From assembly GCF_000522985.1 (NCBI RefSeq), contig NZ_CP007130.1, positions 248,001-312,000 on the forward strand: a stretch of DNA of 64,000 nt, read 5' to 3'. The position numbers were made by a program, and so were the translations under genes. Shown here piece by piece: positions 37,865 through 54,546 of this stretch (positions within the stretch are counted from its first letter, which is position 1; each line of letters opens with the position of its first letter). The notes beneath the pieces are model-generated. The model saw only the letters and a list, made by a program, of their open reading frames with translations. It made no database searches and was not told the origin of the DNA. This DNA comes from Gemmatirosa kalamazoonensis (GTDB taxonomy: Bacteria; Gemmatimonadota; Gemmatimonadetes; Gemmatimonadales; Gemmatimonadaceae).

Positions 37865-39742
37865 ATGTCGCTCCGTCGCCACCGCTGGCTCATCGCGCTC
37901 GCCGTGACCGCGGGCATCGCCGCACCGTACATCGCGCCCGCGCAGGCGGCCGCGCCGCTCCCCGATGTGCCGTTCGCCGTCGCGCGCGCCCAGGGCGAGC
38001 GGATGCTGCGCATGCTCGTCGAGCACTACGGCGTGGTGCGCGACTCGCTCTGGCGGCGCGACGTCGACATGGTGATTCGACGGCTCGTGCGCGCGACCGG
38101 CGTTCCCAACTTCGACGTGGAGTGGCAGATCGTCGGCGACCCGGAGATGAACGCGAGCGCGATGCCGGGCCACGTGCTCGTCGTCAACGCAGGGCTGCTC
38201 GCCGCGGTCGACACGATCGTACGCCGCGAGGTCCCGAACGATCCCGTTCGCCGCCGCGCGCGTCGTCAGGCGTATGTCGCCGCGGTGCTCGGCCATGAGA
38301 TCGCGCACGCCACGCTCGGGCACCCGGACTCGACGCTGCGCGAGGCGCTGGCCGGCCGGCAGGGCTTCGACATCGATCAGGTTCCCGAGCAGGTGCTCGC
38401 CGAGAACGCGGAGCGGCTGCTCGCGGACGCGACGGTGATGCGCGATCTCGAGCGGTCGCGCGCGCACGAGAGCGCGGCCGATCGCGCCGGCGCGCTCTAC
38501 CTGCTCCGCGCCGGGTGGACGATCCAGACGGCGATGGACTTCTTCGGTGTGCTCGACAGCCTCGAGCGCGCCGCGCGCCACGAGGCCGGCCCCGCGACGA
38601 CGCACGAGATCCGCTGGTTCCTCTCGCACCCGCACTCCGCCCGGCGCGCGGCGGACCTCGAGATGCTGCGCGCGAGGCTGCGCGGCGACCAGGCGACGTT
38701 CGACGATGCGCTGACGCTCGTGCAGACGGGCAAGGCGCTCGACAGCGCGGTCGTGATGCTCGACAGCGTGCTGGTCGACTTCCCCGAGCTGCCGCAGGTG
38801 CATCACGCGCGCGCGGTCGCGCTCGAGCGCATGTGGAGCGACGGCGCGTCGGTCGCCGCGCTCCGCGTGCGTGCCGCGTTCCCGACGTACGACACGCCGT
38901 TCATCCAGAGCGTCCGCGGCAGTGTCGGCGACGAGCGACTGCTCGAGCGCGCGCGCGCCGCGTACCACGAGGTGCTCGTGCGCGCGCGCCTCCCGTACGC
39001 GCTCGCGAACCTCGCGGTGCTCGACGCCTATGCCGGCGACGTGCCGCTGGCGCTCGCCCGCTCCGACAGCGCGCGCCGGCTCGCGCCGAACGACACGTCG
39101 GTCGCCGTCAATCGTGCGGTCGTGCTCTACCTCGCCGGCGAGCCCGCGCAGGCGCGCGCGCTGCTCGCGCCGATCGCGCGTGGCGATTCGTCCGCCGAGG
39201 CGGTGTACGACTTCGCGCGCGCGTCGCTCGCGGCGGGCGACACGGCGGCGGCGCGCGCCGCGTTCCTGCACTACCGCGCGCTCGATCCGCGCTCGAGCTG
39301 GGGGCGCGCGGCCGGCGACGCGCTCGCGCTCACGGCGACGGCTGCGCGGCGCACGGATGCGACGGCCGCATCCAACTCCGCCGCGCCTCCCATGGTGATG
39401 GGTATCACGCTCGGTACGCGGCACGATGGCGTGCTGGCGGCGCTCGGATCTCCGGACGCGAGCGGACGCGGGAACGGCGCGCTGGTGCTGCACTACGAGT
39501 CGCGCGGCCTCGCCGTCGCCTTGGGCCCCGACGGCAGCGTCGTCGCGATCGGCGTGCGCGCGCCGGCGACCGTCGCGTTCGACGGCGTCACGGTCGGGAT
39601 GCCGCTCGCCCAGGTGGCGGCGCGGCTCGGCGCTCCGGTCGGGCGTTCCGGCGACGCATTCGTCTTCGACCGCGGCCGCTGGCTGCTGTTCGTCACGCCG
39701 GCCGGCGGCCTGGTCGAGTCGCTCGTGATGGCGACGCGCTGA
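37865..39742 (+). CDS. Secreted M48-family metallopeptidase with TPR-like region
   Basis: 625 residues from the ATG at 37865 (signal peptide WLIALAVTAGIAAPYIAPAQ). The zinc site is GHEIAHATLGH (HExxH near residue 143), and the third ligand is the Glu in RAHESAADRAGALYL. The M48 core is followed by TPR-like helices (about 270-490, for example RLAPNDTSVAVNRAVVLYLA) and a C-terminal two-repeat beta domain (MVMGITLGTRHDGVLAALGS and VTVGMPLAQVAARLG). M48 enzymes of this BepA/LoiP type act on envelope proteins. The CHASE2 cyclase starts immediately after the stop (TGA-GTG), so the two are one transcription unit. Confidence 0.9.
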   Translation: MSLRRHRWLIALAVTAGIAAPYIAPAQAAAPLPDVPFAVARAQGERMLRMLVEHYGVVRDSLWRRDVDMVIRRLVRATGVPNFDVEWQIVGDPEMNASAMPGHVLVVNAGLLAAVDTIVRREVPNDPVRRRARRQAYVAAVLGHEIAHATLGHPDSTLREALAGRQGFDIDQVPEQVLAENAERLLADATVMRDLERSRAHESAADRAGALYLLRAGWTIQTAMDFFGVLDSLERAARHEAGPATTHEIRWFLSHPHSARRAADLEMLRARLRGDQATFDDALTLVQTGKALDSAVVMLDSVLVDFPELPQVHHARAVALERMWSDGASVAALRVRAAFPTYDTPFIQSVRGSVGDERLLERARAAYHEVLVRARLPYALANLAVLDAYAGDVPLALARSDSARRLAPNDTSVAVNRAVVLYLAGEPAQARALLAPIARGDSSAEAVYDFARASLAAGDTAAARAAFLHYRALDPRSSWGRAAGDALALTATAARRTDATAASNSAAPPMVMGITLGTRHDGVLAALGSPDASGRGNGALVLHYESRGLAVALGPDGSVVAIGVRAPATVAFDGVTVGMPLAQVAARLGAPVGRSGDAFVFDRGRWLLFVTPAGGLVESLVMATR

Positions 39743-42517
39743 GTGCGCGACTGGTCCGACTCGAGCGTCGTCGTCGCGGCGGCATGCGCGGTCGTCGCGT
39801 GCGCGCTCGTCGGCGCACTGCGCGAGACGCGCGCGCTGGAGCCGGCCGGGCTGTGGGCGTACGACGCGCTACTGCGGCGCATCCCACCGGACACGACACC
39901 GGTGCCGCACGTCGCAGTCGCGCGCATCACGGAGCGCGATCTGCGGCGCGCCGGCTGGCCGCTCGCCGATAGCACGGTGGAGATGGTGGCCCGCCGGCTC
40001 GCGTCGTTAGGCGCGCGCGTGGTGGCGTTCGACGTGTATCGAGAGCGCGTGCCGCCGGCGATCGCCGCGGCAGGCAGCGCGATCGGCGGCACGGCGGTCG
40101 TGTTCGCGTCCAAGCTCGCGTCGGCCCGAGACGGCGGGTTCCCCTGCCCCATCGGGTCGAGCGAGGACGCGTGCGGCTTCGCCGACGCGGTGGCGGCGCG
40201 CGGCTCGCCGACGCTGCGACGCGCGCTGTATCATGTGCAGCTCGCGGGAGATTCCGCACCGCGCGCGTCGCTCGCGTACACGGCCGTCGTGCGCTACGTG
40301 GCGCCTGACGTGCTCGACACGTCCGCCGAGCCGCGACTCGGACGTTGGCGCTTCGCACCGATGCAAGGCCGCGAGGGCGACTACGTGCGCGATCCGATCG
40401 TCGGACACGAGGAGCTGCTCGACCTGCATCGCGGTGCCCCGCGCGTACTCACGTTCGACCTCGACGCGCTGTCCCGCGGCCGCGTGCCGCGCGCCTGGGT
40501 GGCCGGCCGCATGCTCTTCGTCGGCTACGACGCCGCGTCCATCCGCGACGAGGTGTACCTGCCGACTACGGATCCCGATCGGCAGCCGCCGGGCGAGCCG
40601 GGCGCGTTCTACCACGCACTCGCCGCGAGCCAGGCCGCCGACCTCACGCTCGGCGGCGGCTCGGTGCTTCGGGTGCGCACGCTGCCCGACTGGGGCGAGT
40701 GGATCGCGCTCGCCGCCGGCTGTGCGTTGGGAGCGACGTTAGGCGCGCTGCTCGGTCCTCTCCTCGGCATGCGGCGAACGGGCGCGTGGCTGCTGCTGGC
40801 CGCGTGCGCGTCGCTCGCGCCGCTCGCCGTGCTCGGTGCGTGGGGCGCGCTCCGCGCCGGCTGGTGGCTGCCGCTCGTGCAGCCGCTGCTCGGCTGGGCG
40901 ACCGCGGCCGCGGCGACGACGGCGATGCTCGCCGTGGCGGAGCGGCGCGCGCACGCCGCGGTGATGCAGCTCTTCTCGCGGCACGTGTCGGCCGACGTGG
41001 CGCGCGACATCTGGCGACGGCGGCACGAATTCCTCGACGGCGCGCGACCGCGGCCGCGGCGCATCCCGGTGACGGTGCTTCTCGCCGACCTGAAAGGCTA
41101 CACGAGCGCCGCGGAGCATGCGCCGGCCGAGCAGGTGATCGCGTGGGTGAGCCGCTTCACCGACGCGATGGCACGCGAGATCGATCGACACGGCGGGATC
41201 GTGGACGACTACGCGGGCGACGGCATCAAGGCCGATTTCGGCGTGCCGTTCGCGCGCGCGACCCACGACGAGGTGCGCGACGACGCGCGCCGCGCGGTCG
41301 GCTGCGCGGTCGCGATGGCCGGCGCGCTGGAGCGGCTGAACTCCGAGTGGCTCGCGGCCGGGCTCCCCGTCGCCGCGATGCGCATCGGGGTCGCGAGTGG
41401 AGAGGCGGCGGTCGGCAGCATCGGCAGCGCCGACCGCCTGAAGTACACCGTCGTCGGCGACGTCGTGAACGTGGCGTCGCGGCTCGAATCGCTCGACGTC
41501 GTGCACGACTTCGCGGCGCTGCCGTGCCGGATCCTCCTCGACGCGGCGACGCACGCGCTCGTGCGCGACACGGTGCCGTGCGAGCCGCTCGGCGCGCAGC
41601 CCGTCCGCGGACGCGCGCAGCCGGTCGAGGTGTATCGCGTGCGCGCGGGCGCGACCGTCGCCCGTCTGCCGGCGGTGCCGAACGCGACAGTCGCGGCGCG
41701 CACGCTCGTCGTGCTCGCGTGCCTGACGGTTTCCGCAGCGGCCGCCGGTGCGCAGCCGCGCACGCGCGCGGCGGCCGAGTCCACGCCGCCTCACGCGCGC
41801 GCCGACTCCACGACCCGGAGCGCGGCGCGCCGGGCGACAACGCGCGCGACGCCGCCGGCGACGCGACGGATCGCGTACATGAAGGTCGGGCTGCCGCCGC
41901 GGCTGATCGGTGCCGGCGCGCGCGGCTGCGCGCCGCGTCGACTGCCGACGGTCGTCCTCCTCGCGCCGCACGACCACGTGGCGCAATCGGCCACGGCGAG
42001 CCCCGTCCTGTTCTGGCGCTACGCGGCGGCGCCCGAGGTCGCGCCGAGCGACGTGATCCTCGTGCTCGCGGGTGCCGGGCGCGCGGACACGGCGCGGTTG
42101 CCGGTGCCTGACGGGCCCGTCGTGCGGCGCGTGCGTCTGGCCGATCTGGGCTACGCGCTGCGGCCCGGCGTCACGTACACGCTGCAGGTGCGCGCCCGCG
42201 TCGGCGGACGCACGCTGGCCGGCGACAGCGTCGCGCTGCGCATCGCGCGCGACGTGCGGCCGCGGCTCTCGGGGGAGGCCGCCGTCGCCGCCGCGCGCCG
42301 GTTGGCAGGCGGCGGCGTGTGGTACGACGCCTACGCGCTGCTCGCCGACAGCGCGAGCGTCGCGCCTAACGACGACGCCATCGCGGCGCTGCGCGACACG
42401 CTCGAGCGCGACGCCGAGCGCGCGTCGCATCACGCCGCGCGGCCGTGCTCGGAAGACGACGCGGCGGTTGATCGGCCGCGCTACCGCGCGCCGACGAGCT
42501 GGAACGCGGCCCAGTAG
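39743..42517 (+). CDS. CHASE2-adenylate cyclase with a DUF928-like C-terminal domain
   Basis: 924 residues, GTG start abutting the M48 stop. One N-terminal membrane helix (about 8-26) is followed by a periplasmic CHASE2 sensor (30-315) and three membrane helices (about 318-400). The class III cyclase domain (about 430-640) has metal Asp in VLLADLKGYT and in YAGDGIKADFG, and the adenine-specifying Lys/Asp in LKYTVVGDVVNVASR. These features predict an active adenylate cyclase. A further hydrophobic segment (TLVVLACLTVSAAAAGAQ, about 651) would bring the tail back outside. Residues about 725-835 (PTVVLLAPHD, SPVLFWRYAAA, PGVTYTLQVRARVGG) resemble DUF928, a family of cyanobacterial proteins. The last 12 residues are read from the antisense of the CHAT 2 gene. 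Confidence 0.88.
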   Translation: MRDWSDSSVVVAAACAVVACALVGALRETRALEPAGLWAYDALLRRIPPDTTPVPHVAVARITERDLRRAGWPLADSTVEMVARRLASLGARVVAFDVYRERVPPAIAAAGSAIGGTAVVFASKLASARDGGFPCPIGSSEDACGFADAVAARGSPTLRRALYHVQLAGDSAPRASLAYTAVVRYVAPDVLDTSAEPRLGRWRFAPMQGREGDYVRDPIVGHEELLDLHRGAPRVLTFDLDALSRGRVPRAWVAGRMLFVGYDAASIRDEVYLPTTDPDRQPPGEPGAFYHALAASQAADLTLGGGSVLRVRTLPDWGEWIALAAGCALGATLGALLGPLLGMRRTGAWLLLAACASLAPLAVLGAWGALRAGWWLPLVQPLLGWATAAAATTAMLAVAERRAHAAVMQLFSRHVSADVARDIWRRRHEFLDGARPRPRRIPVTVLLADLKGYTSAAEHAPAEQVIAWVSRFTDAMAREIDRHGGIVDDYAGDGIKADFGVPFARATHDEVRDDARRAVGCAVAMAGALERLNSEWLAAGLPVAAMRIGVASGEAAVGSIGSADRLKYTVVGDVVNVASRLESLDVVHDFAALPCRILLDAATHALVRDTVPCEPLGAQPVRGRAQPVEVYRVRAGATVARLPAVPNATVAARTLVVLACLTVSAAAAGAQPRTRAAAESTPPHARADSTTRSAARRATTRATPPATRRIAYMKVGLPPRLIGAGARGCAPRRLPTVVLLAPHDHVAQSATASPVLFWRYAAAPEVAPSDVILVLAGAGRADTARLPVPDGPVVRRVRLADLGYALRPGVTYTLQVRARVGGRTLAGDSVALRIARDVRPRLSGEAAVAAARRLAGGGVWYDAYALLADSASVAPNDDAIAALRDTLERDAERASHHAARPCSEDDAAVDRPRYRAPTSWNAAQ

Positions 42518-45342
42518 CGCGGCGACGCAAAGCCGGGCGTTAGGCGCACGTCGGTCTGCGCGAGGCGCAGCGCCTCCGCCTTGCTGCGCGCCGGCTGCCC
42601 GTCGGCGCCCAGCCAGTGGGCGTAGAACTGCCGCATGAGCAGCGCCGTCGCCCGGTCGTCGACGCTCCACAGGCTCACCAGCACGCTGCGGGCCCCCTTC
42701 GCGAGCAGCGCGCGCTGGAAGCCGACCGTCCCTTCGGCCCGTTTCAGATCCCCGAGCCCGGTCTGACACGCGCTCAGCACCACGAGGTCCGCCGAGAGCG
42801 GCGGCACCGCGTCGAGCAGCTCGCCGATCGTGAGGAGACCGTCGTTCTTGCCGTCGGGCGCGAGCGCGACGTACGAATCGCGCACGCGCGCCTCGCTGCC
42901 GTACGCGAGCCCGTGCGTGGCCAGATGGACGAGGTGCGCGTTCGGCAGCGCCTGCCTGACGGCCGTCTCCGTGGCGCCGCGGTCCGTCAGCACGGCGACG
43001 CCGAAGCGTCGCGCCACGGCGTCCCCCTCCGCGCGGGCGGCAGGCAGGTCGCGCAGCTTCACGCGCCGCCCGTCGGCGGCCGTGACGGTCGGCATCGCCG
43101 GGTCGCCGACCACGAGCGCGCGGCCGGCCGCTCCGGCGACGGCGTGTGCCTCGGCGGCGGCGAGCGCACGCAGCGACGGCGCGTAGCGCAGCGCGTAGCG
43201 AGCGCCTAACGGCAGCGTGTCGCCGACGATGGGGAGCGCGCCGAACGGCACGAGACCGAGCACGCCGTGAGGCACGATGACGAGGTCGGTGCCCGCCGGC
43301 ACCGTCCGCGCGAGTCCCGGCGGGAGCAGCGTCGCGGCTAACGCTGCCATCACGGCGCGGAGCCGCGCCTGCGCCTCCGGACTCGCCTCGTCCTCGACGC
43401 CACGCGACCCCGCGGTGTCGTCAGGCGAGCGCCGAGCGACGCGCTCCTGCTCGACGTCCCCACCGCGCGCCATGCGCGTCCGCGCAGCGTCCGCGCCGAG
43501 TGCCGCGCGCAATGTCGTGACGAGCGCGGCGAGGCTGTCGCCGTTCAGGCGCCTGCGACCGCCGACGCGAAGTTCGCCGGTCGGGCTCAGGAGCCACGTC
43601 GTCAGCGCAGCGGGGCTGATGAAGTAGTAGAGCGCCGCGGAGCCGGCGCGCCGCAGCGCGTCCAGCTCCGACGTGCCTTCCGTCGCGAGGTCCGCATCGG
43701 GCACGGTGTCGTGCGCCCAGCCCGTGGAGTCGGCCGTCGGCCCGGCCGCGCTCCCGGACCGGGCGAGCAGATCGCGCAGCCCCTGCGCTCTCCCGCGCTC
43801 GGCGGCGGCGAGAGCGGCGGTGACTGCCACGGTCGCGGACGTGTCGCGCGACGCCGCTCTCGAGAGCCAGGCCCCGACCCACATGTCGGCCGCGTCGTGG
43901 TGGTCTTCCGCAAAGGCCACCGCACCGGCGTCGCCGCCGGCGTGCATCCGGATCGTGGCGTACAGCGCCATCGCGCTGTCCAGCACGTGCAGCGCCGCAT
44001 CGTACCGGCGTATGCTTCCGTAGATCCGACTGATGGCGCTCAACGTCCCCGCCTGTTGACTGGGGTCGCCCACCGCGCGAGCGAGCGAGAGCGCCGCCCG
44101 GAAGTACGCGAGCGCCGAGTCGGCTTGGCCGCGCTCGGCGAAGCCGCGGCCGATGTCGCCGAGTGTCTCGGCCTCGCCCCCGCCGTCGCCGACGGCGCGA
44201 TGGAGCGGGAGTGCCACGCGGTAGTACGTCAGCGCCGAGTCGACGTGGCCCGTGCGGTGGTACGCGACACCCATTCTGCTCAGCGCCAGCGCCTCGCCGC
44301 GGCGGTCGCCGACGGCGCGCAGGAGCGGCAGTGCCGCCCGGAAGTACGTGAGCGCCGAGTCGAGCGTTCCGATGCCGGTGAAGATCCAGCCGAGGTGGCT
44401 GAGCGTCACCGCCTCGCCGGTTCGATCACCCACGGCGCGGACGCGGGGGAGCGCCGCGCGGTAATAGAAGAGCGCCGAGTCGGGCTGTCCCGTGCGGCTG
44501 AAGACGCCGCCGATGCTCGCGAGCGCGGTCGCCTCGCCCGCGCGGTCGCCGACGGCGCGGTGCAGGAGCAGCGCCGCGCGGAGGCACGCGAGGGCTGAAT
44601 CGGGCCGGCCGATGCCCTCGAGGACCGCGCCGATTACCCTGAGCGTCTCCGCCTCGCCTTGGCCGTCGCCCGCGGCGCGACGGAGCGCCAGTGCCGGCCG
44701 CAGGAACACGAGCGCTGAATCGGGCCGCCCCGTCTTGAAGTACTCCCCACCGATCGTGGTGAGCGTCTCCGCTTCGTTCTTGTGGTTGCCGACCGCGCGG
44801 TGGAGCGCGAGTGCCTCGCGATAGTATGCGAGTGCGGAATCCGGACGGCCGATGCGCCCAAAGACGACGCCGATGTTGGTGAGCATCGACGCCTCGCCAC
44901 CGCGGTCGCCCGCCGCGCGGTAGAGCGCGAGCGCCAACCGGTCGTAGGCCAGCGCCGAGTCGGGTTGGCCGAGCCGGGTGTAGACCACGGCGAGATCTTG
45001 GAGCGCTCCCGCCTCAGCGTTGCGGAGCCCCAGCGCGCGCGTGAGCGGCAGCACCGACTGGTAGTATCCGCGCGCCGAATCGACCTGGCCGATGGTGAGA
45101 AACACTCTGCCGATGCCGTACAGCGCCGCGCCCTCGCTCCGGCGTTCGCCGACGGCGCGACTGTGCGTGAGCACCGCCCGGAACGTCGCCAGCGCAGAAT
45201 CGCGCTGGCCCGCCCCGAGCTGGCGTTCGCCACGACCCACGAGCGACATCAGACTGTCGGCTGGCGTCTGGGCGCGGCACGGCGACGCGGACGGAACGAC
45301 GAGCGCCGCGAGCAGCGCGAATGCGCCGACCGCCGCACGCAT
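42481..45342 (-). CDS. Secreted TPR-CHAT protein 2
   Basis: 953 residues. The ATG at 45342 overlaps the stop of TPR-CHAT 3 by one base (TGATG), which fixes the start. The signal peptide is MRAAVGAFALLAALVVPSAS. About 11 tandem 40-residue TPRs (for example TGEAVTLSHLGWIFTGIG) run to about residue 450, then the ERGRAQGLRDLLARS linker and a CHAT domain with His in HLATHGLAYGSEARV and Cys in LSACQTGLGDLKRAEG. The C-terminus (TPGFASPRYWAAFQLVGAR) is identical to those of CHAT 1 and 3, while the TPRs differ. The last 37 bp overlap the end of the cyclase gene on the opposite strand. Confidence 0.92.
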   Translation of the reverse strand: MRAAVGAFALLAALVVPSASPCRAQTPADSLMSLVGRGERQLGAGQRDSALATFRAVLTHSRAVGERRSEGAALYGIGRVFLTIGQVDSARGYYQSVLPLTRALGLRNAEAGALQDLAVVYTRLGQPDSALAYDRLALALYRAAGDRGGEASMLTNIGVVFGRIGRPDSALAYYREALALHRAVGNHKNEAETLTTIGGEYFKTGRPDSALVFLRPALALRRAAGDGQGEAETLRVIGAVLEGIGRPDSALACLRAALLLHRAVGDRAGEATALASIGGVFSRTGQPDSALFYYRAALPRVRAVGDRTGEAVTLSHLGWIFTGIGTLDSALTYFRAALPLLRAVGDRRGEALALSRMGVAYHRTGHVDSALTYYRVALPLHRAVGDGGGEAETLGDIGRGFAERGQADSALAYFRAALSLARAVGDPSQQAGTLSAISRIYGSIRRYDAALHVLDSAMALYATIRMHAGGDAGAVAFAEDHHDAADMWVGAWLSRAASRDTSATVAVTAALAAAERGRAQGLRDLLARSGSAAGPTADSTGWAHDTVPDADLATEGTSELDALRRAGSAALYYFISPAALTTWLLSPTGELRVGGRRRLNGDSLAALVTTLRAALGADAARTRMARGGDVEQERVARRSPDDTAGSRGVEDEASPEAQARLRAVMAALAATLLPPGLARTVPAGTDLVIVPHGVLGLVPFGALPIVGDTLPLGARYALRYAPSLRALAAAEAHAVAGAAGRALVVGDPAMPTVTAADGRRVKLRDLPAARAEGDAVARRFGVAVLTDRGATETAVRQALPNAHLVHLATHGLAYGSEARVRDSYVALAPDGKNDGLLTIGELLDAVPPLSADLVVLSACQTGLGDLKRAEGTVGFQRALLAKGARSVLVSLWSVDDRATALLMRQFYAHWLGADGQPARSKAEALRLAQTDVRLTPGFASPRYWAAFQLVGAR

Positions 45343-48335
45343 CAGCGGGCCCCCACGAGCTGGAAGGCGGCCCAGTAGCGCGGCGACGCGAAGCCGGGCG
45401 TCAGCCGCACGTCGCTCTGCGCGAGCCGCAGCGCCTCCGCCTTGCTCATCGCCGGCATGCCGTCGCTGCCCAACCAGTGGGCGTAGAAGCGATCCATGAG
45501 CAGCGCCGTCGCCCGATCGTCGACGCTCCAGAGGCTCACCAGCACGCTGCGCGCGCCTTTCGCGAGCAGCGCACGCTGGAAGCCGACCGTCCCCTCCGCC
45601 TGCTTGAGATCCCCAAGTCCGGTCTGGCACGCGCTCAGCACGACGAGATCGGCAGCGAGCGACGGCACGTCGTCCAACAGCTCACCGATCGTGAGCAGCC
45701 CGTCGTTCGCGCTGTCGGGCGCCAGCGCGACGTACGAGTCCCGCACGCGCGCTTCGCTGCCGTACGCCAGGCCGTGCGTCGCCAGGTGCACGACAGGAGC
45801 GGTCGGCAGCGCCTGCCGGACCGCCGTCTCGGTGGCCGCGCCGCCGGTGAGCATCGCGACGCCGAAGCGGCCGGCGACCACCTCGCCCTCGCGGCGCGCC
45901 GCAGGGAGGTCCCGTAGCGGGACACGTCGACCGTCCGCGCTCACCACGCGCGGCATCGCCGGGTCGCCCACGACGAGCGCGCTTCGAGCGCGCGACACGC
46001 CGCGCGACTCCGCCGCATCGAGTACGCGGAGCGATGGTGCGTAGCGGAGCGCGTAGCGGGCGCCTAACGGCAGGGTGTCGCCGGCGATGGGGAGGGCGGC
46101 GAACGGCACGAGGGCGAGCACCCCGTGCGGCACGATGACGAGGTCCGTGCCGGCGGGCACGGCGCGTGTGAGCGCGTCGGGGAGCAGCAGCGCGCCTAAC
46201 GCCGCGGTCGCGGCGCGGGATCGCGCCTGCCCTTCAGGGGTCGACTCGTCCTCGACACCGCGCGAACGGGCCGCGTCGTCGGGCGCTCCGGTGCCTGAGG
46301 CGGCCCGCTCCTGCTCGAGCTGCCCACCCCGCGCCATGCGCGTGCGCGCGGCGTCGGCGCCCAACGCAGTGCGCAGCGTCGTGACGAGCGCCGCGAGACT
46401 GTCCGGCTTCACGACGGCCAGGCCGGCGAGGCGCAGCTTTCCCGCCGCGTCGAGCAGCCAGGTCGTCAGCGTGTCCTGACTGCTGTAGCTGTCGTGACCG
46501 AGGAAGTAGTAGAGCGCGGCCGTCCTCGTGTGGCGTAACGGGGCCAGCTCCTTCGCCGCCTCGGCGGCGAGGTCCGCGCCGGGCACGGTGTCCCGCTCCC
46601 ACAGGATGTCGGCAGAATTCGGCACCGCCGGTCCGGCCGACGTCGACGCGCGGGCGAGCAGATCCCGCAGCCCCTGCGCGCGCCCGCGTTCGGCGGCGGC
46701 GAGGGCGGCTGCCACGGCTCCATCGGATGCCGCCCGCGCGTGCGTGAGCCAGCTCCGTACCCAGAGATCGACGGCACCCCGCTGGTCTTCGGCATACGCC
46801 ACGGCGCTCGCGTCGCTCCCGGTACGCATCCGCACGGTCGCGAAGCGCGCGCTCGCGCTGTCCAGAAGGGCGCGCGCCGCGTCGGACTGGCCGGCGTGAT
46901 CGAGCAGCTTGCCGATCCACGAAAGCGCCGCCGCCTCGCCCTGCGGGTCGCCCATGGCACGCCGGAGTGCGAGCGCGTCCCGGAAGTCGCCGAGCGCGGC
47001 ATCGGGCCGACCGGTGCGCCAGTACAGCACACCGATGTTCGCGAGCGCGCTCGCCTCGCCGTCACGGTCGCCCACGTCGCGCTGCAGTGGAAGCGCCATC
47101 TGGTAATACGTCAGCGCCGAGTCGAATTGGCCGATGCGATGATAGACGGTGCCGATGTTGCCGAGCGCCGACGCCTCGGTGCCTCGGTCTCTGACTTCAC
47201 GGCTGAGTCGCAGCGCCTCCCGGTGGTAGCTGAGCGCCGAATCGAGCTGACGCATGCCCCAGTAGGCCGATCCGACGCTGTTGAGTGCCTCCCCCTCGAG
47301 CGCACGGTTGTTCACCGCGTGGGCGAGCGGCAGCACCGACCGGAAGTAGCTGAGCGCCGAATCACGCTGGCCGGTGCCGAGATAGATCGAGCCGATGTCG
47401 TAGAGCGTCGTCGCCTCGCCTCCCCGATCCGCGACGGCACGCTGGATCAGCAGCGCCGAGCGGAAGTAGGCGAGCGCCGAATCGATCGCACTGGCGCCGT
47501 GATACACCAAGCCGATGCTGCCGAGCGTCGTCGCCTCGGCTCGGCGATTGCCTGCGGTCCGGTAGTAGGCGAGCGCAGCTCGGTAGTAAGCGAGCGCCGA
47601 GTCGGCCGGGCCGATGCGATAGTAGATCGTGCCGATGGTCGATACCGTCGCCACCTCGCCGGCACGGTCGCCCATCGCGCGTCGGAGGGGCAGCGTCGCG
47701 CGGTAGTAGGCGACCGCGGAATCGCGGCGGCCGGCGGAATCGTGGGCCATGCCGATGCTGTTGAGCATCGCCAATTCGCCCCCACTGTCGCGCAGCGCGC
47801 GGACGAGCGGGAGCGCCGCCCGCAAGTAGCCGAGTGCCGAGTCGGGGCGGCTCGTGCGAAGGTAGAACCCGCCGACGCCGACGAGCGCCATCGCCTCGAG
47901 CCGGCCGTCGCCCGAAGCGCGGCTGAGCGGAAGTGCTTCCCGGAAGTAGCCGAACGCCGAGTCCGGACGGCCCGTCGTCTGGTACAGTAGACCGATGGTC
48001 GTGAGCGTCGTCGCTTCCAGCCGGCGGTCGCCGCCATCGCGCGCGAGCAGGAGCGCCGCCCGGAAGTAGATGAGTGCGGAGTCGGGCTGGTGAGTGCTGA
48101 AGTGCAACAGGCCGATGCCATTGAGAACTCTCGCCTCGCCGCCGTGATCAGCGATCGCATGCTTGAGCCGGAGCGCCGCCCGCAGCGAGACCGCCGCCGA
48201 ATCGAACTGGCGTGACTGGGTCTGGCGCAGCCCGCGATCGAGCAAGTCCGTCGCGCTGTCCGCGGTCGTCTGCGCGTGAGACGGCGACGACACGAGAACG
48301 GGTGCGAGAAGCATCACGATGCGCGTGCAGCGCAT
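45342..48335 (-). CDS. Secreted TPR-CHAT protein 3
   Basis: 997 residues. The ATG at 48335 follows a GGGAG Shine-Dalgarno in the leader shared with CHAT 1, whereas an in-frame ATG at 48362 would lie inside that leader. The signal peptide is short (TRIVMLLAPVLVSSPSHA). About 12 tandem 40-residue TPRs (for example GTEASALGNIGTVYHRIGQ) are followed by the RGRAQGLRDLLAR linker and a CHAT domain with an intact His (HLATHGLAYG) and Cys (LSACQTGLGDLKQ). It is translationally coupled to CHAT 2 and begins 61 bp after the GAF gene, so it may also be read from the sigma/subtilase/GAF operon. Confidence 0.92.
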   Translation of the reverse strand: MRCTRIVMLLAPVLVSSPSHAQTTADSATDLLDRGLRQTQSRQFDSAAVSLRAALRLKHAIADHGGEARVLNGIGLLHFSTHQPDSALIYFRAALLLARDGGDRRLEATTLTTIGLLYQTTGRPDSAFGYFREALPLSRASGDGRLEAMALVGVGGFYLRTSRPDSALGYLRAALPLVRALRDSGGELAMLNSIGMAHDSAGRRDSAVAYYRATLPLRRAMGDRAGEVATVSTIGTIYYRIGPADSALAYYRAALAYYRTAGNRRAEATTLGSIGLVYHGASAIDSALAYFRSALLIQRAVADRGGEATTLYDIGSIYLGTGQRDSALSYFRSVLPLAHAVNNRALEGEALNSVGSAYWGMRQLDSALSYHREALRLSREVRDRGTEASALGNIGTVYHRIGQFDSALTYYQMALPLQRDVGDRDGEASALANIGVLYWRTGRPDAALGDFRDALALRRAMGDPQGEAAALSWIGKLLDHAGQSDAARALLDSASARFATVRMRTGSDASAVAYAEDQRGAVDLWVRSWLTHARAASDGAVAAALAAAERGRAQGLRDLLARASTSAGPAVPNSADILWERDTVPGADLAAEAAKELAPLRHTRTAALYYFLGHDSYSSQDTLTTWLLDAAGKLRLAGLAVVKPDSLAALVTTLRTALGADAARTRMARGGQLEQERAASGTGAPDDAARSRGVEDESTPEGQARSRAATAALGALLLPDALTRAVPAGTDLVIVPHGVLALVPFAALPIAGDTLPLGARYALRYAPSLRVLDAAESRGVSRARSALVVGDPAMPRVVSADGRRVPLRDLPAARREGEVVAGRFGVAMLTGGAATETAVRQALPTAPVVHLATHGLAYGSEARVRDSYVALAPDSANDGLLTIGELLDDVPSLAADLVVLSACQTGLGDLKQAEGTVGFQRALLAKGARSVLVSLWSVDDRATALLMDRFYAHWLGSDGMPAMSKAEALRLAQSDVRLTPGFASPRYWAAFQLVGAR

Positions 48336-48372
48336 ATCCACTCCCGATTCCGATTCCTTCACGCTGCGCGCG
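48336..48372 (-). promoter_or_regulatory. Conserved leader of TPR-CHAT gene 3
   Basis: Reading toward the gene: CGCGCGCAGCGT, 6 bases, ATCGGAATCGGGAG, 5 bases, ATG. The blocks (48361-48372 and 48341-48354) match the leader of TPR-CHAT 1 exactly, including the 6-base spacer and the distance to the ATG. CHAT 2 lacks it because it is coupled to CHAT 3. Confidence 0.6.
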
Positions 48373-48396: not shown

Positions 48397-48879
48397 TCAT
48401 TCGGGCACGGCGGCCTTGGCGTGCGTCAGAACCGCCTCGATCAGGAACGCATACCACGCCGCTTCCGCGAGATCCTCGACTCCGAACCGCGCGCGCTCCG
48501 CGGGGTTGATCGCCGACAGCACGCCGACCACCTCGCCGCCTAACGTCACCGGCACGGCGACCATCGCCGTGACCGGTCTGCCCGTCGCGCGCATCACCGT
48601 CGGGTTCTGCCAGTCGTCCGGACCGACGACCATCCCCGAGCCCTGCGTGGCGACGAATCCGACGACGCTCGCGGTCACCGGCACCGACTGCGCCTCCACC
48701 ACCGATTCGTCAGGCCCGTGATTCAGCGCCGCGGCGAGCGCGTCGTCGCCGTCGTACGTCCACAGCGTCGACTCGGCGGCGCCGAGAGCACGTGCCGCAC
48801 CGGCGAGCAGGCGACGCAAGCGAGCGGCGAGCGGCGGCCGTCGGCAGAACCCGGCGTCGACGTCAGGGAGCGTGCTCAT
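48397..48879 (-). CDS. Stand-alone GAF-domain protein
   Basis: 160 residues. The ATG at 48879 overlaps the subtilase stop by 4 bp (ATGA). Nearly the whole protein is a GAF domain: RRLLAGAARALGAAESTLWT, the FVATQGSGMVVGPDDWQNPT stretch, and the strand pair MVAVPVTLGGEVVGVLSAIN, ending in helix FGVEDLAEAAWYAFLIEAVL. GAF domains bind cyclic nucleotides or other small ligands. With an adenylate cyclase encoded 6 kb away, cAMP is a testable ligand, but that is only inference. No output domain is present, so it probably acts on a partner protein. Confidence 0.85.
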   Translation of the reverse strand: MSTLPDVDAGFCRRPPLAARLRRLLAGAARALGAAESTLWTYDGDDALAAALNHGPDESVVEAQSVPVTASVVGFVATQGSGMVVGPDDWQNPTVMRATGRPVTAMVAVPVTLGGEVVGVLSAINPAERARFGVEDLAEAAWYAFLIEAVLTHAKAAVPE

Positions 48880-49628
48880 GTCGCCATCGGTCGCGCGATG
48901 TCGTACAGCGCGGCCTTCACCTGCGTCGCGTTCCACCGCGGATGCCGCTCGCGCAGCCGCGCCACGAGCGCGGCGACGTGCGGTGCGGCGAAGCTGCTTC
49001 CCGTGACGACCGCCGTCGCGCCGTCCCGCCAGGCCACCGGCACGTCCACGCCCGCGGCGCGGAACTCCACGAGCCGTCGCGCGCAGCGCTCGAGCGCGAG
49101 CGGCGGCAGCGCGGCGTGCGCCACGGACACGACGGAGGCGAAGTGGGCCGGGTACTCGACGATGTCTGGATCGAGATTGTTGCACGCCGACACGAGGATC
49201 GATCCCGCGACGTACACGCCGTCCACCGCCGGCTTGAATCGGCCGAGCAGCGCGAGGTACGTCGAGCCGAGGCTCGTGTTGATCACGTCATAGCGCTGCA
49301 CGACGGCCCACTCGAGCGCCGCGAGCAGATGCTCCGTGGTGCCGCGCCCGCGCTTCCCGACGACGCGCACGCTCGCGAGCGCCGCGTCGGGCGCGTGCCG
49401 CCTGACGATCGACGCGACGGCGGTGCCGTGGCCCACCAGATCGTTAGGCGCGTCGGGCACGACGCGCTTCCGACCGTCCTCCGACTCGTCGACGGCGAAG
49501 TGCGCGACCGCCGCACCGGCGAGCGCCGGATGCGCGTCGTCGACACCCGAATCGACGATGAGCACGCGCACGCCGCGCCCCGTCAGGCCGGCGAGCGGCT
49601 CCGCCGACTCGTGCGCGAGCGTGCTCAC
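48876..49628 (-). CDS. Cytoplasmic subtilisin-like (S8) serine protease
   Basis: 250 residues. The GTG start at 49628 overlaps the sigma-factor stop (GTGA). The complete S8 catalytic set is visible: Asp in RVLIVDSGVDDAHP, His in VGHGTAVASIV, oxyanion Asn in LVSACNNLDPD and Ser in VVTGSSFAAPHVAAL. There is no signal peptide and no I9 propeptide, so it is a minimal core likely to work in the cytoplasm. That is unusual for subtilases and is known from conflict or regulatory-proteolysis operons. Tight coupling between the sigma factor and the GAF protein suggests the three act together. Confidence 0.9.
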   Translation of the reverse strand: MSTLAHESAEPLAGLTGRGVRVLIVDSGVDDAHPALAGAAVAHFAVDESEDGRKRVVPDAPNDLVGHGTAVASIVRRHAPDAALASVRVVGKRGRGTTEHLLAALEWAVVQRYDVINTSLGSTYLALLGRFKPAVDGVYVAGSILVSACNNLDPDIVEYPAHFASVVSVAHAALPPLALERCARRLVEFRAAGVDVPVAWRDGATAVVTGSSFAAPHVAALVARLRERHPRWNATQVKAALYDIARPMAT

Positions 49629-50452
49629 GTGCGTGGCAGCGCCTCATGCACGTCGTCCGCGAAGCGGTCACCGTACCGCTCGATCACTGCACGCCGGAGC
49701 CTCTTGAGCGCGTCGAAGCGACGCTTGCGCAGCGCGACCTCGCTGCGTCCCGTCGCCACGGTCAGCTCCGCGTACGAGCGCCCCTCGACGATCTGCTGCT
49801 GCAGTAGCTCCCAGTCCTCGGGCTTCAGCACCTCGCTGGCGACGGAGGCGAGCGCGCGTGCCATGCGCTTCAACTGCATGTCGCGCTCGCTCGTCATCAC
49901 CTCGCCGTCGGCGGTCCAGCCGCCCTCGAGGCCGCGCACCTCGCCGTCGCGCGCCTCGAGCGGAACATGCTCGGGCTTCGCGTCGGCCGCGCGCATCCAG
50001 TTCTTGAGCGCGTTCGCGCTCACGGTGGCGCCCCACGTCCTCAGCGACGACTGCCCGCGGTACGTCGCGAGCTTGTCCCACAGGCGCGCGAACACCAGCT
50101 CGACGAGGTCGGCCTCGTTCCATCCGAGGCCGTAGGCGTAGATCCGCTTCAGCACCACGGGCTCGAGGCGGCTCCGGATCTCGACGAGCGCCGACTCGCT
50201 TCCCTGCTGCGCCTTGAGCGCGAGCGCGAGATCGGCCGCGTGGGCGGGCGGCGCCTCGCGCAAGAACAGGTCGAATCGCGCGCGCCGTCGCCGCGCACGC
50301 CGCGCCAGTTCGGCCGCCACCGTGCCCAGACGCGCGTCGACACGTGCGACGGCGGCGGACGCGCCGCGCAGCGCGCCGAACACGCGCACGACGGCCGCGA
50401 AGAAGGTCTCGTCCGCCGAGTCGATGAAAGGTGCGGCGTTAGGCTCGCCCAT
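49625..50452 (-). CDS. ECF-like sigma-70 family factor with an N-terminal extension
   Basis: 275 residues from the ATG at 50452. Residues 1 to about 75 form a helical, Arg-rich extension. Region 2 is recognisable at about 90-155 (DLVELVFARLWDKLATYRG, QSSLRTWGATVSANALKNWM). An acidic linker follows, and region 4 lies at about 210-262 (LKPEDWELLQQQIVEGRSY, AELTVATGRSEVALRKRRFD). It would direct RNA polymerase to a specific regulon, perhaps including the CHAT leaders. It heads an operon with subtilase and GAF genes (4-bp overlaps), which could be its release machinery. The start region overlaps the preceding gene by 14 bp. Confidence 0.83.
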   Translation of the reverse strand: MGEPNAAPFIDSADETFFAAVVRVFGALRGASAAVARVDARLGTVAAELARRARRRRARFDLFLREAPPAHAADLALALKAQQGSESALVEIRSRLEPVVLKRIYAYGLGWNEADLVELVFARLWDKLATYRGQSSLRTWGATVSANALKNWMRAADAKPEHVPLEARDGEVRGLEGGWTADGEVMTSERDMQLKRMARALASVASEVLKPEDWELLQQQIVEGRSYAELTVATGRSEVALRKRRFDALKRLRRAVIERYGDRFADDVHEALPRT

Positions 50453-50792
50453 GGGACGGCGCGTGTTGCGGGTGGATCGAGAACTCTCCGGTCGCCCCGG
50501 CATCGTCGAGCCAGACGCCAGCGATGCCGTGGCCGAGCGCCGCGCCATCGAGATCCGTGGCGGAGCCGTCGGATGCCGTGAGCAGCAGGGCGAACCGCCC
50601 GGACTCGGCCCCGTAGATCCCGAAGACGTCGAACGGGCCGCGCGGCTCGTCACCACTCCCGACGATGATACCGTCGTGGAAGCGGAGCGCGAGTCGGAGG
50701 CATCGGCGCGTGCCGGCATCGCTACGGTACCCGGCCCAGCAGCCGTCGGGAGGTTGCCGTCGTGCGTGCGTGGCGGTGGAGGGCTGTGGCAT
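50439..50792 (-). CDS. Small beta-barrel protein preceding the sigma factor
   Basis: 117 residues from the ATG at 50792. A GTG at 50828 is an alternative. The sequence is beta-rich with a repeated hairpin pattern: WAGYRSDAGTRRCLRLALRF, HDGIIVGSGDEPRGPFDVFG and GIAGVWLDDAGATGEFSIHP. This resembles small avidin- or lipocalin-like barrels built from G-rich turns, but I cannot assign the family. No signal peptide. Its TAA stop lies inside a GCCTAACG copy (50438-50443), and the same bases encode Pro-Asn in the overlapping sigma factor gene. First gene of the operon. Confidence 0.65.
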   Translation of the reverse strand: MPQPSTATHARRQPPDGCWAGYRSDAGTRRCLRLALRFHDGIIVGSGDEPRGPFDVFGIYGAESGRFALLLTASDGSATDLDGAALGHGIAGVWLDDAGATGEFSIHPQHAPSHGRA

Positions 50793-50841
50793 CGGAGTCC
50801 GGTGAACGTGTCTCCGCGGGGCTGACACCGTAAGACGGCGT

Positions 50842-51003: not shown

Positions 51004-51384
51004 ATGCGTGCCACGCTTCGTGCTTCCGTGATCGCGCTCCGCGACCGTCTCGCCCGCCGTCCGCTCGTCGCCGCCGCCGCGGCGCTCCTCCTGATCGCCG
51101 CACCCGCCGGCGCGATGGCCGACGCCTATCTGTTCACGAGCCGCGCGATGCCGCACGACTACAACATCCACACGATCTACGCCTCCGGCGGGCGCGTCAC
51201 CGTACGCGGCGACGGCGACACCGATCTCGACTGCTACCTCGTGAAGAACGGCCAGGTGATCGCGACGGACGACGACGCCACCGACTACTGCATCCTCGAC
51301 ACGCACGGCTACGCCGGCCCGTACGCGCTGATCGTGAAGAACTGGGGCAACGTCTACAACCAGTACGACGTGCGGATCGAGTGA
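51004..51384 (+). CDS. Small secreted PPC-like protein
   Basis: 126 residues from the ATG at 51004. The signal peptide (RPLVAAAAALLLIAAPAGAM) is followed by one domain of about 85 residues. The pattern HTIYASGGRVTVRGDGDTDL, LDCYLVKNGQVIATDDDATD and GPYALIVKNWGNVYNQYDV is that of a bacterial pre-peptidase C-terminal (PPC) beta-sandwich, here free-standing. Two Cys could form a disulfide. PPC domains are normally attached to secreted proteases. The secreted caspase encoded two genes downstream is the obvious potential partner. Confidence 0.78.
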   Translation: MRATLRASVIALRDRLARRPLVAAAAALLLIAAPAGAMADAYLFTSRAMPHDYNIHTIYASGGRVTVRGDGDTDLDCYLVKNGQVIATDDDATDYCILDTHGYAGPYALIVKNWGNVYNQYDVRIE

Positions 51385-51446: not shown

Positions 51447-51559
51447 GACGGCACCATTCGCCGCGACACAGCATTGACAGCCGCATCCCACGCCCCACTG
51501 TTGTCCTGCCTCACCCGAAGTCGATGCGGCTGCGCGTCCTTCACCCTCTTGGAGGTCCC

Positions 51560-52063
51560 ATGTCATCGATCGTCGGTCGACACCTCAGACCATTCTTCGC
51601 CGCCCTGCTCGTCGTCGTGACGCTGGCGTTGTCCGTGGGTGCGCTCGAGGCGCGGGCGCTCAACGAACCGCACCGCCAGCCAACGCAGCCTGCGCAGGTG
51701 GTGCACACGAAAGGCGTGAAGAGCCGGGGCGCCGCGACGGACCCGAACGTCAAGCGCGACTCGCTCCCCGCGAATCATGCCGGCACCACGGTGCCGGCCC
51801 CGCCGAGCAAGGGCGGCGCGAAGACGCGCGGCGCGATGAGCGGCGCGCTGCACGTCGACAACCGCACGTCGTGGATCATTCGCATCTACGTGGACGGCGA
51901 CTACGTCGGCAACGTCGGCCGGTACGGCGACTCGTACGGCTACTACGGCTGCTCCGTCCGCACGCTCTACGCTCGCGCGTACTTCGACGACGGCACGTGG
52001 ATCGCCTGGGGGCCGGTCCGCCGTGACCTGTGCGACAACTACACGTGGGAGCTCGACCCGTGA
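51560..52063 (+). CDS. Secreted protein encoded directly before the caspase
   Basis: 167 residues. The ATG at 51560 is preceded by GGAGG at 51551, which decides the start. A signal peptide (LRPFFAALLVVVTLALSVGA) leads into a low-complexity, positively charged linker (about 35-95). The compact C-terminal domain begins LHVDNRTSWIIRIYVDGDYV, continues GNVGRYGDSYGYYGCSVRTL and ends in a strand WIAWGPVRRDLCDNYTW, with two Cys. This looks like a small beta-sandwich of the kind that binds a partner. I do not recognise the family. Its stop overlaps the caspase GTG (GTGA), so co-translation with the caspase is likely and it may be its inhibitor or carrier. Confidence 0.75.
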   Translation: MSSIVGRHLRPFFAALLVVVTLALSVGALEARALNEPHRQPTQPAQVVHTKGVKSRGAATDPNVKRDSLPANHAGTTVPAPPSKGGAKTRGAMSGALHVDNRTSWIIRIYVDGDYVGNVGRYGDSYGYYGCSVRTLYARAYFDDGTWIAWGPVRRDLCDNYTWELDP

Positions 52064-54546
52064 GCCCCGCGCGCCGCCACGCCGGCCGTCTCCTGCTCCG
52101 CGTGGCGGCGCTCGCACTCGGCGCGCGCGCCGCACACGCGCAGTCGCGCCATGCGCTGCTGATCGGCATCAATCAGTACGAGTACGCCGCGCCCGTCCTC
52201 ACGTCGTGGCAGCGCCACGTGCAGCCGGCGGTCGCCGCGTGGCGAGCGCGGTTACAGGGCAGCGCGCCGGCGACTGCGGCGCGCCTCACCGGCGAGCCCG
52301 CGCCGCACCGGCAGCTCGTCGGAGATCTCGACGGTGCGGTGAACGACGCGACGGCGATGGCCGAAGTGCTCCAGCATAGATATCAGTTCGCACCGCCGCG
52401 GCTCCTGCTCAATGAGCACGCAACGCGCGACTCGATCCTCGCCGCGCTGCGCCAGCTCGCCGACGACGCGCGGCCGGGCGATGTGATCGTGTTCTACTAC
52501 GCCGGCCACGGCTCGCAGCGCGTGAACTCGCTCAGCACCCGCAAGCTGAACCACCTCGATCAGACCATCGTCCCGGCCGACGCGAACGCGGGCCAGTTCG
52601 ACATCCGCGACATGGAGCTTGCCGCGGCGTTCGATCGCGTGCTCGATCGCATCGGCCCGACGGGCACGCTGACACTCATCTTCGACAGCTGCCACAGCGG
52701 CGCGGTCACGCGCGGCGAACCGAGTCCGTCGAAGGTACGGTGGGCAGCCGCCGACCCGCGCGACGCGGCCGACTCCGTCGCCGTACCGCCGCCGGAGGAT
52801 CGCGGCGCGCTGTTCCTCGCCGCGGCGCAGGACTTCGAGCCGTCGAGCGAGGTGACGACGTCCGACATCGAGGGGCGGCCACGCGCGCACGGCGCGTTCA
52901 CCGCGGCGCTCCTGCGCGTCATGCGCTCGGCGCCCCCGAACGAGCCGGCGATGCGGGTGTTCGAGCGCGCCCGCGCGATCCTGCAGCAGGACGGCCTCGC
53001 GCAGAACCCGGTGATCCGCGGCACCGAGTCCGACCGCCGCCGCTCGCTGTTCGGCACGTATCACGGCGCGATCGCGGGCGGCGTCACCGCGCCGGTGCTG
53101 CGCGTCGAGCACGACACGGTGCGGCTGCAGGCGGGCCTCGCCGTCGGTCTCGCGCCGGGCGCGGAGCTGCGACTCGTCGACTCGGCGCCTAACGCGCCGG
53201 TGCGGCTGAAGGTCGTCGCGGTGCACGGACTCGCCGAGAGCGACGCGGTGGCCATCGCCGGCTCGCCAGGTCGCCTCTCGCCCGGCACGCTCTTCGTGGT
53301 CGACCGATGGACGTCCGCGAGCGGTCCGGCGCTGCGCGTGTGGATCCCGGCCGGCCGCGAGCCGGCGGCGCTGACGCGCGACGTCGCCGCGCTCGGCGCG
53401 CTCCGCCACGGTTCGGTCGCGGAGTGGACCGACGATCCCACGACGCTGCCCGACGACGGACGGCCGTTGTACGTGGTGCGCTACGAGCCGGACGGCTGGC
53501 ATCTCGTCACACCGGCCGGCGCGACGATGCGGCTCGCCACTGCAACAGCGGACGAGGTGGGCCGCGCGATCGCCGCGGCGGAGTCCGCCGCGACCTCGGT
53601 GCGCGAGCGCGAGCGTACCGCGCTGCGTGCCGCCGGCGCCCAGGCCGATGGCATCCTGCCGCCCGCGGGCGTACGGCCACGCGTGGCGGTGCTCGTGCCG
53701 CCGCCGACACCGCTGCGCACCAGTCTCCGGCTCGGACGCGGAACGCCGAACGACGCCGTCGAGCCGGTCGACGACCCCGCGGCGGCCGACTACCTGCTCG
53801 CCGGTCGGCTCGGCGACGGTGGCGTCAGCTACGCGTGGCTGCGGCCTAACGGCAGCGCGGCGTCGCAGCGGCGCTCGAGTCTTCCGCCGCGCACGCTGTG
53901 GGTGGGCTCCGGCGCGCTCGACGTCGCGGCCGACTCACTCACCGAGCTCGCGACGCGCCTGGCGCGGCTGCGCGGCTGGCTCACGCTCGCGGCGCCGCCG
54001 GACACCGGCGAGTCTCGGTTCCCGTATCGGCTCGCCCTTCGAAATCGAGCGACCGGCGCGCTCCGCGACTCCGGCGAGACGCACGACGGGGAGAGCTTCG
54101 ACCTCGTGCTGCAGCGCGACTCGACGATCCCGGTCGACCGCATTCCCGCGCGCTGGGTGTACGTGCTGGCGATCGACAGCTACGGACGCGGCATCCCGCT
54201 CTTCCCTTCGGCGGGGCTCGGCGGTAACCGGGTGCCGATGGACTCCGCGGGCACCGACATCGCGCCGCCGGTGATCACGCTGCCGCGCCGCGCGCCCATC
54301 CGCATCGTGCCGCCGTACGGCGTCGACACGTTCGTCCTGCTGACGACGGCGGAGGCGATCGACCCCGACGTGCTGCGCTTCGACGGCGTACGCGGAGCGT
54401 CGAGCGACGCGGCGGGCGGAACACTCTCACGGCTCCTCGCCCGCGTCGGGCGCACGCGCGGCGTGGACGACGACCCCGTGCCGTCGTCGTGGTCGGTGCA
54501 GCGGCTAGCGCTGCGCAGCGGGCCGGCGACGACGGCGAAGCCGTGA
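52060..54546 (+). CDS. Secreted caspase-family (C14) protease with DUF4384-like C-terminus
   Basis: 828 residues. The GTG at 52060 overlaps the previous stop, which sets the start. The signal peptide is GRLLLRVAALALGARAAHA. The caspase p20-type domain (about 28-340) starts RHALLIGINQYEYAAP and carries His in VFYYAGHGSQRVNS (about 149) and Cys in LIFDSCHSGAVTRG (about 210), so the dyad is intact. It is followed by AAQDFEPSSEV and HGAFTAALLRVM, as in metacaspase-like and paracaspase enzymes. Several beta domains follow, and residues about 650-780 (ARWVYVLAIDSYGRGIPLFP) match the DUF4384 pattern often fused to bacterial caspases. Secretion places it in the same compartment as the three CHAT proteases. 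Confidence 0.93.
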   Translation: MSPARRHAGRLLLRVAALALGARAAHAQSRHALLIGINQYEYAAPVLTSWQRHVQPAVAAWRARLQGSAPATAARLTGEPAPHRQLVGDLDGAVNDATAMAEVLQHRYQFAPPRLLLNEHATRDSILAALRQLADDARPGDVIVFYYAGHGSQRVNSLSTRKLNHLDQTIVPADANAGQFDIRDMELAAAFDRVLDRIGPTGTLTLIFDSCHSGAVTRGEPSPSKVRWAAADPRDAADSVAVPPPEDRGALFLAAAQDFEPSSEVTTSDIEGRPRAHGAFTAALLRVMRSAPPNEPAMRVFERARAILQQDGLAQNPVIRGTESDRRRSLFGTYHGAIAGGVTAPVLRVEHDTVRLQAGLAVGLAPGAELRLVDSAPNAPVRLKVVAVHGLAESDAVAIAGSPGRLSPGTLFVVDRWTSASGPALRVWIPAGREPAALTRDVAALGALRHGSVAEWTDDPTTLPDDGRPLYVVRYEPDGWHLVTPAGATMRLATATADEVGRAIAAAESAATSVRERERTALRAAGAQADGILPPAGVRPRVAVLVPPPTPLRTSLRLGRGTPNDAVEPVDDPAAADYLLAGRLGDGGVSYAWLRPNGSAASQRRSSLPPRTLWVGSGALDVAADSLTELATRLARLRGWLTLAAPPDTGESRFPYRLALRNRATGALRDSGETHDGESFDLVLQRDSTIPVDRIPARWVYVLAIDSYGRGIPLFPSAGLGGNRVPMDSAGTDIAPPVITLPRRAPIRIVPPYGVDTFVLLTTAEAIDPDVLRFDGVRGASSDAAGGTLSRLLARVGRTRGVDDDPVPSSWSVQRLALRSGPATTAKP

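Follow-up and report, generated by a model that had tools for sequence, protein, structure and literature searches.

We analysed a 64,000-nucleotide stretch of the Gemmatirosa kalamazoonensis genome (contig NZ_CP007130.1, positions 248,001 to 312,000; genome size, 7.5 Mb), hereafter the window, in which four overlapping genes on the minus strand include those for an S8 subtilase and a GAF-domain protein. The first gene of this operon encodes an orphan protein of 117 amino acids (50439..50792; coding score of the open reading frame, 23) and is followed by the genes for a 275-residue sigma factor similar to the extracytoplasmic function (ECF) type (49625..50452), a minimal cytosolic subtilase of 250 residues with a GTG start codon (48876..49628) and a GAF protein of 160 residues (48397..48879). 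The initial annotation had reported overlaps of 14 bp between the small protein and sigma factor genes, 4 bp between the sigma factor and S8 genes and 4 bp between the S8 and GAF genes, and we re-measured identical values. G+C contents at the three codon positions were consistent with coding sequence for the small protein (0.73/0.59/0.81) and the subtilase (0.77/0.52/0.92). None of the four products had an evident signal-peptide-like N-terminus, a feature that we assessed throughout by eye and hydropathy only. Also as annotated, the operon heads into two TPR-CHAT genes on the same strand. CHAT3 (45342..48362; Pfam CHAT, E-value of 5e-64) lies downstream of the GAF gene at a distance of 34 bp to a GTG start or 61 bp to an ATG at 48335, from which a hydrophobic, signal-peptide-like N-terminus is predicted. 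Its stop codon overlaps by 1 bp the ATG of CHAT2 (42481..45342; 2.6e-64), which encodes a signal-peptide-like N-terminus as well. The short spacing and the 1-bp overlap make a transcription unit of six genes, from the small protein through CHAT2, plausible. A search for terminator-like sites along this path found none.

The subtilase scored 94 bits against PF00082 (cut-off, 21.8; E-value of 1.3e-26) and thus qualifies as a member of the S8 family. We located the catalytic residues D26, H67 and S212 and the oxyanion residue N151, all of them 100% conserved in an alignment of 43 sequences, and noted that a propeptide could not be accommodated ahead of a catalytic aspartate as early as residue 26. 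Hence, the protein is the minimal core described in the initial annotation, with an intact active site and with neither signal nor propeptide. The closest named model was QhpE (NF049966), at 104.1 bits and below its cut-off of 165, and the enzyme is therefore not a QhpE. Nor is it a type VII secretion mycosin, given a score of 84.8 bits against TIGR03921 (cut-off, 278.75) and the lack of a signal-like N-terminus.

Relatives of the subtilase revealed a conserved partnership with the GAF protein. Translated searches of PLSDB identified a plasmid of Miltoncostaea oceani (Actinomycetota) with annotated, consecutive genes for a sigma factor, S8 and GAF and a 4-bp overlap between the last two. Searches within the phylum ("phylum" and "family" refer in our counts to computed kinship groups) retrieved a second genus of the window's family (genome G134, locus L061), whose S8 is 41% identical and whose GAF gene overlaps by 8 bp. 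With these three S8 sequences we scanned 84,980 species genomes for similar patterns, without using the GAF gene to choose matches, and recovered 80 loci. We defined as S8-GAF loci those with a GAF gene directly beside a minimal S8 gene, as in the window, where the two overlap by 4 bp. A GAF gene adjoined S8 in 40 of the first 41 loci of the scan (at least 38% identity, except for two at 32-33%) and in 42/43 once L061 and locus L066 were added to complete the set used below; at the lone exception (L106) the S8 reading frame reaches the end of the contig. By contrast, none of the 39 weaker scan loci, mostly large subtilases that served as controls, had an adjacent GAF gene (0/39), and no GAF gene was present within 1.5 kb of 28 other S8 loci from the window's phylum. 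In a separate search of 296 genomes of Actinomycetota, the phylum of locus L077, the S8 was present in 10 (approximately 3%), and the nine besides L077 all had an adjacent GAF gene (9/9), although one or two may duplicate species already counted. Gene order varied (S8 first in 23 loci, GAF first in 19), and in either order an overlap of exactly 4 bp was frequent (18/31 measured junctions). Adjacent S8 and GAF genes occur in about six bacterial phyla, five of them beyond the window's own. S8 and GAF are a conserved pair, beyond chance. The S8 phylogeny also separated the S8-GAF group from the control subtilases, with a dividing branch that is weak (68/69).

The GAF protein most likely senses a cyclic nucleotide, cyclic AMP (cAMP) or cyclic GMP (cGMP). 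The window protein matched Pfam GAF (E-value of 1.2e-9), and a profile of its family retrieved from the PDB the GAF domains of CyaB2 (150 bits), cAMP-bound Lcd1 (123 bits) and PDE2A (116 bits), with PDE5 and PDE10 also among the first matches. A single family member alone scored 75 bits against the Lcd1 GAF. The AlphaFold model of the window protein, computed from 30 sequences, reached a predicted local distance difference test score (pLDDT) of 90, and its top Foldseek matches were PDE2 (PDE2A GAF first), PDE10, PDE6 and CyaB2. Thus, family profile and predicted fold both point to the GAFs of CyaB2, PDE2/5/6/10 and Lcd1; those of CyaB2 and the phosphodiesterases reside within a cyclase or phosphodiesterase, unlike the stand-alone GAF encoded beside the protease. 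Part of the high rank of PDE-like GAFs is a database effect, because a generic GAF control profile retrieved only two PDB entries, one of which was the cAMP-bound Lcd1 GAF (29.6 bits). A stronger argument is the gap between CyaB2 at 150 bits and other GAFs such as PtsP (45 bits) and NifA (42 bits) with the same family profile.

The neighbourhood of the pair is likewise rich in cyclic nucleotide functions. Recurrent neighbours were class III cyclases, often cyclase-AAA or cyclase-kinase proteins, CRP-like regulators, and exporters of the major facilitator superfamily (MFS) and ATP-binding cassette (ABC) types with a domain that binds cyclic nucleoside monophosphates (cNMP). A class III cyclase or cNMP-binding gene lay within approximately 8 kb in 35/43 S8-GAF loci versus 0/39 controls (Fisher p of 9.5e-16, to be read as a guide only because Streptomyces-like genomes are over-represented among the controls and the test loci supplied seeds for the domain models). 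The window itself encodes a class III nucleotide cyclase on the plus strand (39743..42517; E-value of 2.5e-55 with a cyclase hidden Markov model for which the sequence was one of the seeds). This protein is 44% identical to its homologue in L061, a CHASE2 and Guanylate_cyc protein encoded beside the S8-GAF pair, and is a candidate source of the GAF ligand. Its C-terminal part looks like DUF928, and the combination of cyclase, CHAT and DUF928-like parts recalls what we take to be the composition of cyanobacterial CHAT loci.

The two upstream genes of the operon are less widely shared. The sigma factor matched TIGR02937 (sigma70-ECF; 45.6 bits, cut-off of 42.9) and Pfam Sigma70_r2 (25.3, cut-off of 24; E-value of 1.4e-5), with Sigma70_r4 below its cut-off (14.9 versus 24.1). 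Alignment with relatives revealed an N-terminal extension of approximately 75 residues ahead of region 2. The sole close relative found, 39% identical over residues 49-153, is encoded in L061, 5 kb from the S8-GAF pair there, and also carries a long N-terminal extension; the extension is a candidate cleavage target. As a search anchor the sigma factor was abandoned, since 200 genomes of the phylum returned only generic ECF matches (E-values of 1e-12 or weaker), and neither S8 nor GAF genes were present beside the 29 loci of such matches that we fetched. A search with it in PLSDB gave no match. A sigma factor gene was present within approximately 8 kb of 15/43 S8-GAF loci and 4/39 control S8 loci. 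The 117-residue protein, for which a GTG at 50828 would fit as an alternative start, had no match in Pfam, NCBIfam or the PDB and no convincing homologue among the 200 genomes of the phylum. A single-sequence AlphaFold model predicted five strands at a pLDDT of 42.8, a confidence too low to confirm or exclude a barrel fold. The label of beta-barrel that the protein initially received is thus unproven. We dropped the protein as an anchor for finding relatives, since it had no convincing homologue and its model was too poor for structure searches.

The genes around the operon encode a set of proteins, most of which appear to be exported. The region encodes three TPR-CHAT proteins (CHAT1-3), a caspase-fold protein, an M48-like protein, the class III cyclase and two small secreted proteins. 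The genes other than CHAT2 and CHAT3 for which we give coordinates are on the plus strand: an M48-like metallopeptidase/TPR protein (37832..39742; the M48 name was assigned by eye); a small secreted PPC-like protein divergent from the operon (51004..51384; an open reading frame with a signal-like N-terminus and no Pfam match); the small secreted protein SEC2 (51524..52063); and the caspase-fold Peptidase_C14 protein (52030..54546; Pfam C14, E-value of 4.5e-23). Signal-peptide-like N-termini were recognized in CHAT1-3, the caspase, the M48-like protein, the PPC-like protein and SEC2. Homologues of SEC2, also without Pfam match, reside beside caspase or CHAT genes in L061 (13065-13538), L161 (9264-9809) and L162 (9517-10065). 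The caspase has homologues in L061 (35% identity) and L162 (E-value of 8e-133), and the M48-like protein in the same two loci. L061 shares with the window, in a different order, the M48, CHASE2-cyclase, SEC2, caspase, sigma, S8 and GAF genes. In L161 a TPR-CHAT gene (E-value of 1e-234) adjoins SEC2, and in L162 the SEC2, caspase and M48 genes are adjacent. The exported CHAT/caspase set therefore recurs in the window's family. S8, GAF and sigma genes joined it in two genomes, the window's and G134, the only ones with a GAF gene among the loci fetched from the 200 genomes searched with S8. Given the signal-peptide-like N-termini of CHAT1-3 and the caspase, their exported forms should be out of reach of a cytosolic S8, and a link between them would more likely be transcriptional.

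We propose, with a probability of about 45%, that S8 and GAF form a cNMP-gated cytosolic switch that acts on the sigma factor or the small protein and is tied to the exported CHAT/caspase set. The GAF and minimal S8 proteins would be made together, probably in one complex. The nearby CHASE2-type cyclase would make the cNMP ligand that the GAF protein binds, thereby gating the protease. Rather than degrade proteins broadly, S8 would make a specific cut, either in the N-terminal extension of the sigma factor or in the 117-residue protein, and the changed sigma activity could alter the transcription of the CHAT/caspase genes. That a ligand-bound GAF protein licenses the subtilase was already suggested in the initial annotation; the conserved pairing and the similarity to cNMP-type GAFs argue for this part, with the gating itself still a step that we infer. 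Its choice of the sigma factor or the barrel as substrate is not supported, because most pairs are without a sigma gene, the small protein is an orphan and many relatives encode peptides that would make better substrates.

Several observations weigh against the proposed switch. The window GAF is divergent by its own sequence (best PDB match with an E-value of 0.014), its NKXnFX3DE motif is incomplete (N125, F132 and D136 are kept, K is replaced by P126 and E by L137), and an HD-GYP protein (4mcw) scored 104 bits with the family profile. The cAMP-bound Lcd1 GAF also deviates from the motif (NR...FSPEDL). In the window, 6 kb separate the pair from the closest cyclase gene, which is on the opposite strand. 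No S8-GAF fusion was seen among the relatives examined, and in the phylogeny the S8 of the window forms a long branch of uncertain placement. As for the sigma factor, it accompanies only a minority of the pairs, the actinobacterial sigma factors near S8-GAF do not have the N-terminal extension, and an ECF-like promoter pattern occurred 6 times versus 5.3 expected, with no excess over chance.

To our knowledge, bacteria have no established class of proteases under the direct control of cAMP or cGMP. The protease switch known to be gated by a second messenger, CalpL, is part of type III CRISPR immunity. In the CalpL-CalpT-CalpS system a cyclic nucleotide messenger activates the protease, which cuts an anti-sigma factor and frees the sigma factor (PMC12751052). 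The proposed action in the window, from second messenger to protease to sigma factor, would be alike only if the inferred steps hold. CalpL is, however, a fusion of Lon and SAVED that senses cyclic tetra-adenylate (cA4), whereas the window encodes a subtilase and a separate GAF protein with cAMP or cGMP as the predicted ligand; hence, it is not a member of that system. More tentatively than for the window, S8-GAF could represent an undescribed and widespread class of intracellular proteases under cAMP or cGMP control, which process small peptides in most phyla but in the window's family were rewired to act on a sigma factor and a regulon of exported CHAT/caspase proteins, as a subtilase counterpart of CalpL/T/S. 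If true, S8-GAF would be a switch that converts a second-messenger signal into protein cutting, and it would offer a first way into the regulation of exported bacterial CHAT/caspase proteins. Its genomic signature is sharp (adjacent GAF gene, 4-bp overlap, cyclase or cNMP-binding neighbours), and the idea is testable with two proteins and one small molecule. We found nothing in the open-licence literature on combinations of subtilase, GAF and cyclase or of ribosomally synthesized and post-translationally modified peptides (RiPPs), GAF and cyclase.

Peptide maturation is a serious rival because many S8-GAF loci carry peptide genes and the nearest named S8 is QhpE. Under this explanation S8 would be a cytosolic RiPP-type protease, the GAF protein and cNMP would time the cleavage of a small precursor whose product is exported, and the sigma factor would serve expression only; the precursor in the window would be the 117-residue protein or one encoded elsewhere. 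QhpE is a cytosolic, single-turnover leader peptidase in the biogenesis of quinohemoprotein amine dehydrogenase, encoded with its substrate (PMC7876137). The window enzyme is also a cytosolic subtilase but has a GAF partner, and no qhp or radical SAM gene was seen in its operon. Small proteins with [DE]xE[GA]H repeats (for example, DVEGH) were encoded at 17/43 S8-GAF loci and 0/39 controls (L071, L074, L079, L081, L082, L095, L100, L107 and others); they look like multi-core peptide precursors, have no family name and include, in L081 (1694-2248), one with KHTHHGAP repeats. NHLP/Os17-like peptides of 84 residues were found at 10 loci (L083, L088, L107, L079, L085, L075, L066, L077, L089 and L097), often between the sigma and S8 genes, as in the recurring actinobacterial order of sigma factor, NHLP-like peptide, S8, GAF and cNMP-binding MFS exporter. 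An FTCD_C (cyclodeaminase-like) gene is located near the 84-residue peptide in the actinobacterial cluster. Sactipeptide-type peptides were present at 6 loci (L087, L091, L101, L102, L076 and L099), and a Streptomyces-type sactipeptide-like cluster comprised a radical SAM protein, a peptide with an aroma-sacti domain, a cyclase-AAA protein, S8 and GAF. Such RiPP-like peptides are rival substrates in the actinobacterial and Chloroflexi relatives, and the cNMP-binding exporters nearby fit the same explanation. Against it, the window, L061, L161 and L162 yielded no NHLP-like or sactipeptide-like gene, and neither the window nor L061 has a DVEGH repeat (the only DVEGH-type pattern in the window is inside a response regulator). 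Moreover, the NHLP-like matches, like that to QhpE, were under the curated cut-offs, and verrucomicrobial GAF-S8 pairs adjoin YkuD and unrelated genes. We regard peptide maturation as less probable for the window than the cNMP-gated switch.

Co-transcription for economy only, with the sigma factor and the orphan protein unrelated to S8-GAF, is improbable. In compact genomes of high GC content, genes often overlap by a few bases, and the pair is conserved largely without the sigma factor and entirely without the small protein. However, a sigma gene is in the same operon as S8-GAF in another phylum (L066, L075, L079, L083, L085, L088 and L107), and a sigma gene lay within the same distance at 4/39 control loci. 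Some features of the region recall defence systems. The Craspase/CASP loci combine the TPR-CHAT protein Csx29 with the ECF factor CASP-sigma and act by proteolysis of a sigma inhibitor (PMC10028731), and ECF sigma factors are known beside the EACC2-caspase conflict systems (PMC8195603). The window resembles Craspase (Cas7-11, Csx29, Csx30 and CASP-sigma) in having TPR-CHAT and ECF-like sigma genes in one locus, and the EACC2 systems in having a caspase-fold protein with an ECF-like sigma factor nearby. Csx29, however, works with Cas7-11 on target RNA, whereas the CHATs of the window seem to be exported, with S8 as the protease inside the cell, and the window is probably not a member; no Cas7-11 was noticed among the window reading frames inspected, with no search aimed at Cas genes. 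The EACC2 systems pair EACC2 with caspase domains and differ from the layout of exported CHAT/caspase and S8-GAF proteins. A defence or programmed-death system with CHAT/caspase executioners triggered by the sigma factor and S8-GAF is the least probable reading, for although three CHATs and a caspase are kept in relatives, these proteins have signal-peptide-like N-termini, the operon genes match no specific defence family but just generic models of subtilases, TPRs and caspases, and most S8-GAF relatives are without a nearby CHAT or caspase gene.

Other minimal S8 genes were noted in the course of these searches. One genome of Verrucomicrobiales (G203) encodes three paralogues, and the GAF-S8 pairs in this genome and a relative (L098 and L104) adjoin a gene for a YkuD L,D-transpeptidase. 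Two S8 proteins with 35-38% identity (L062, 9015-9836; L063, 87-2102) were rejected as family members because they have no GAF gene and adjoin LanC-like genes and HlyD/ABC genes for export. This setting, NHLM-like as judged by eye, suggests that they are a peptide-processing cousin of the S8-GAF enzymes.

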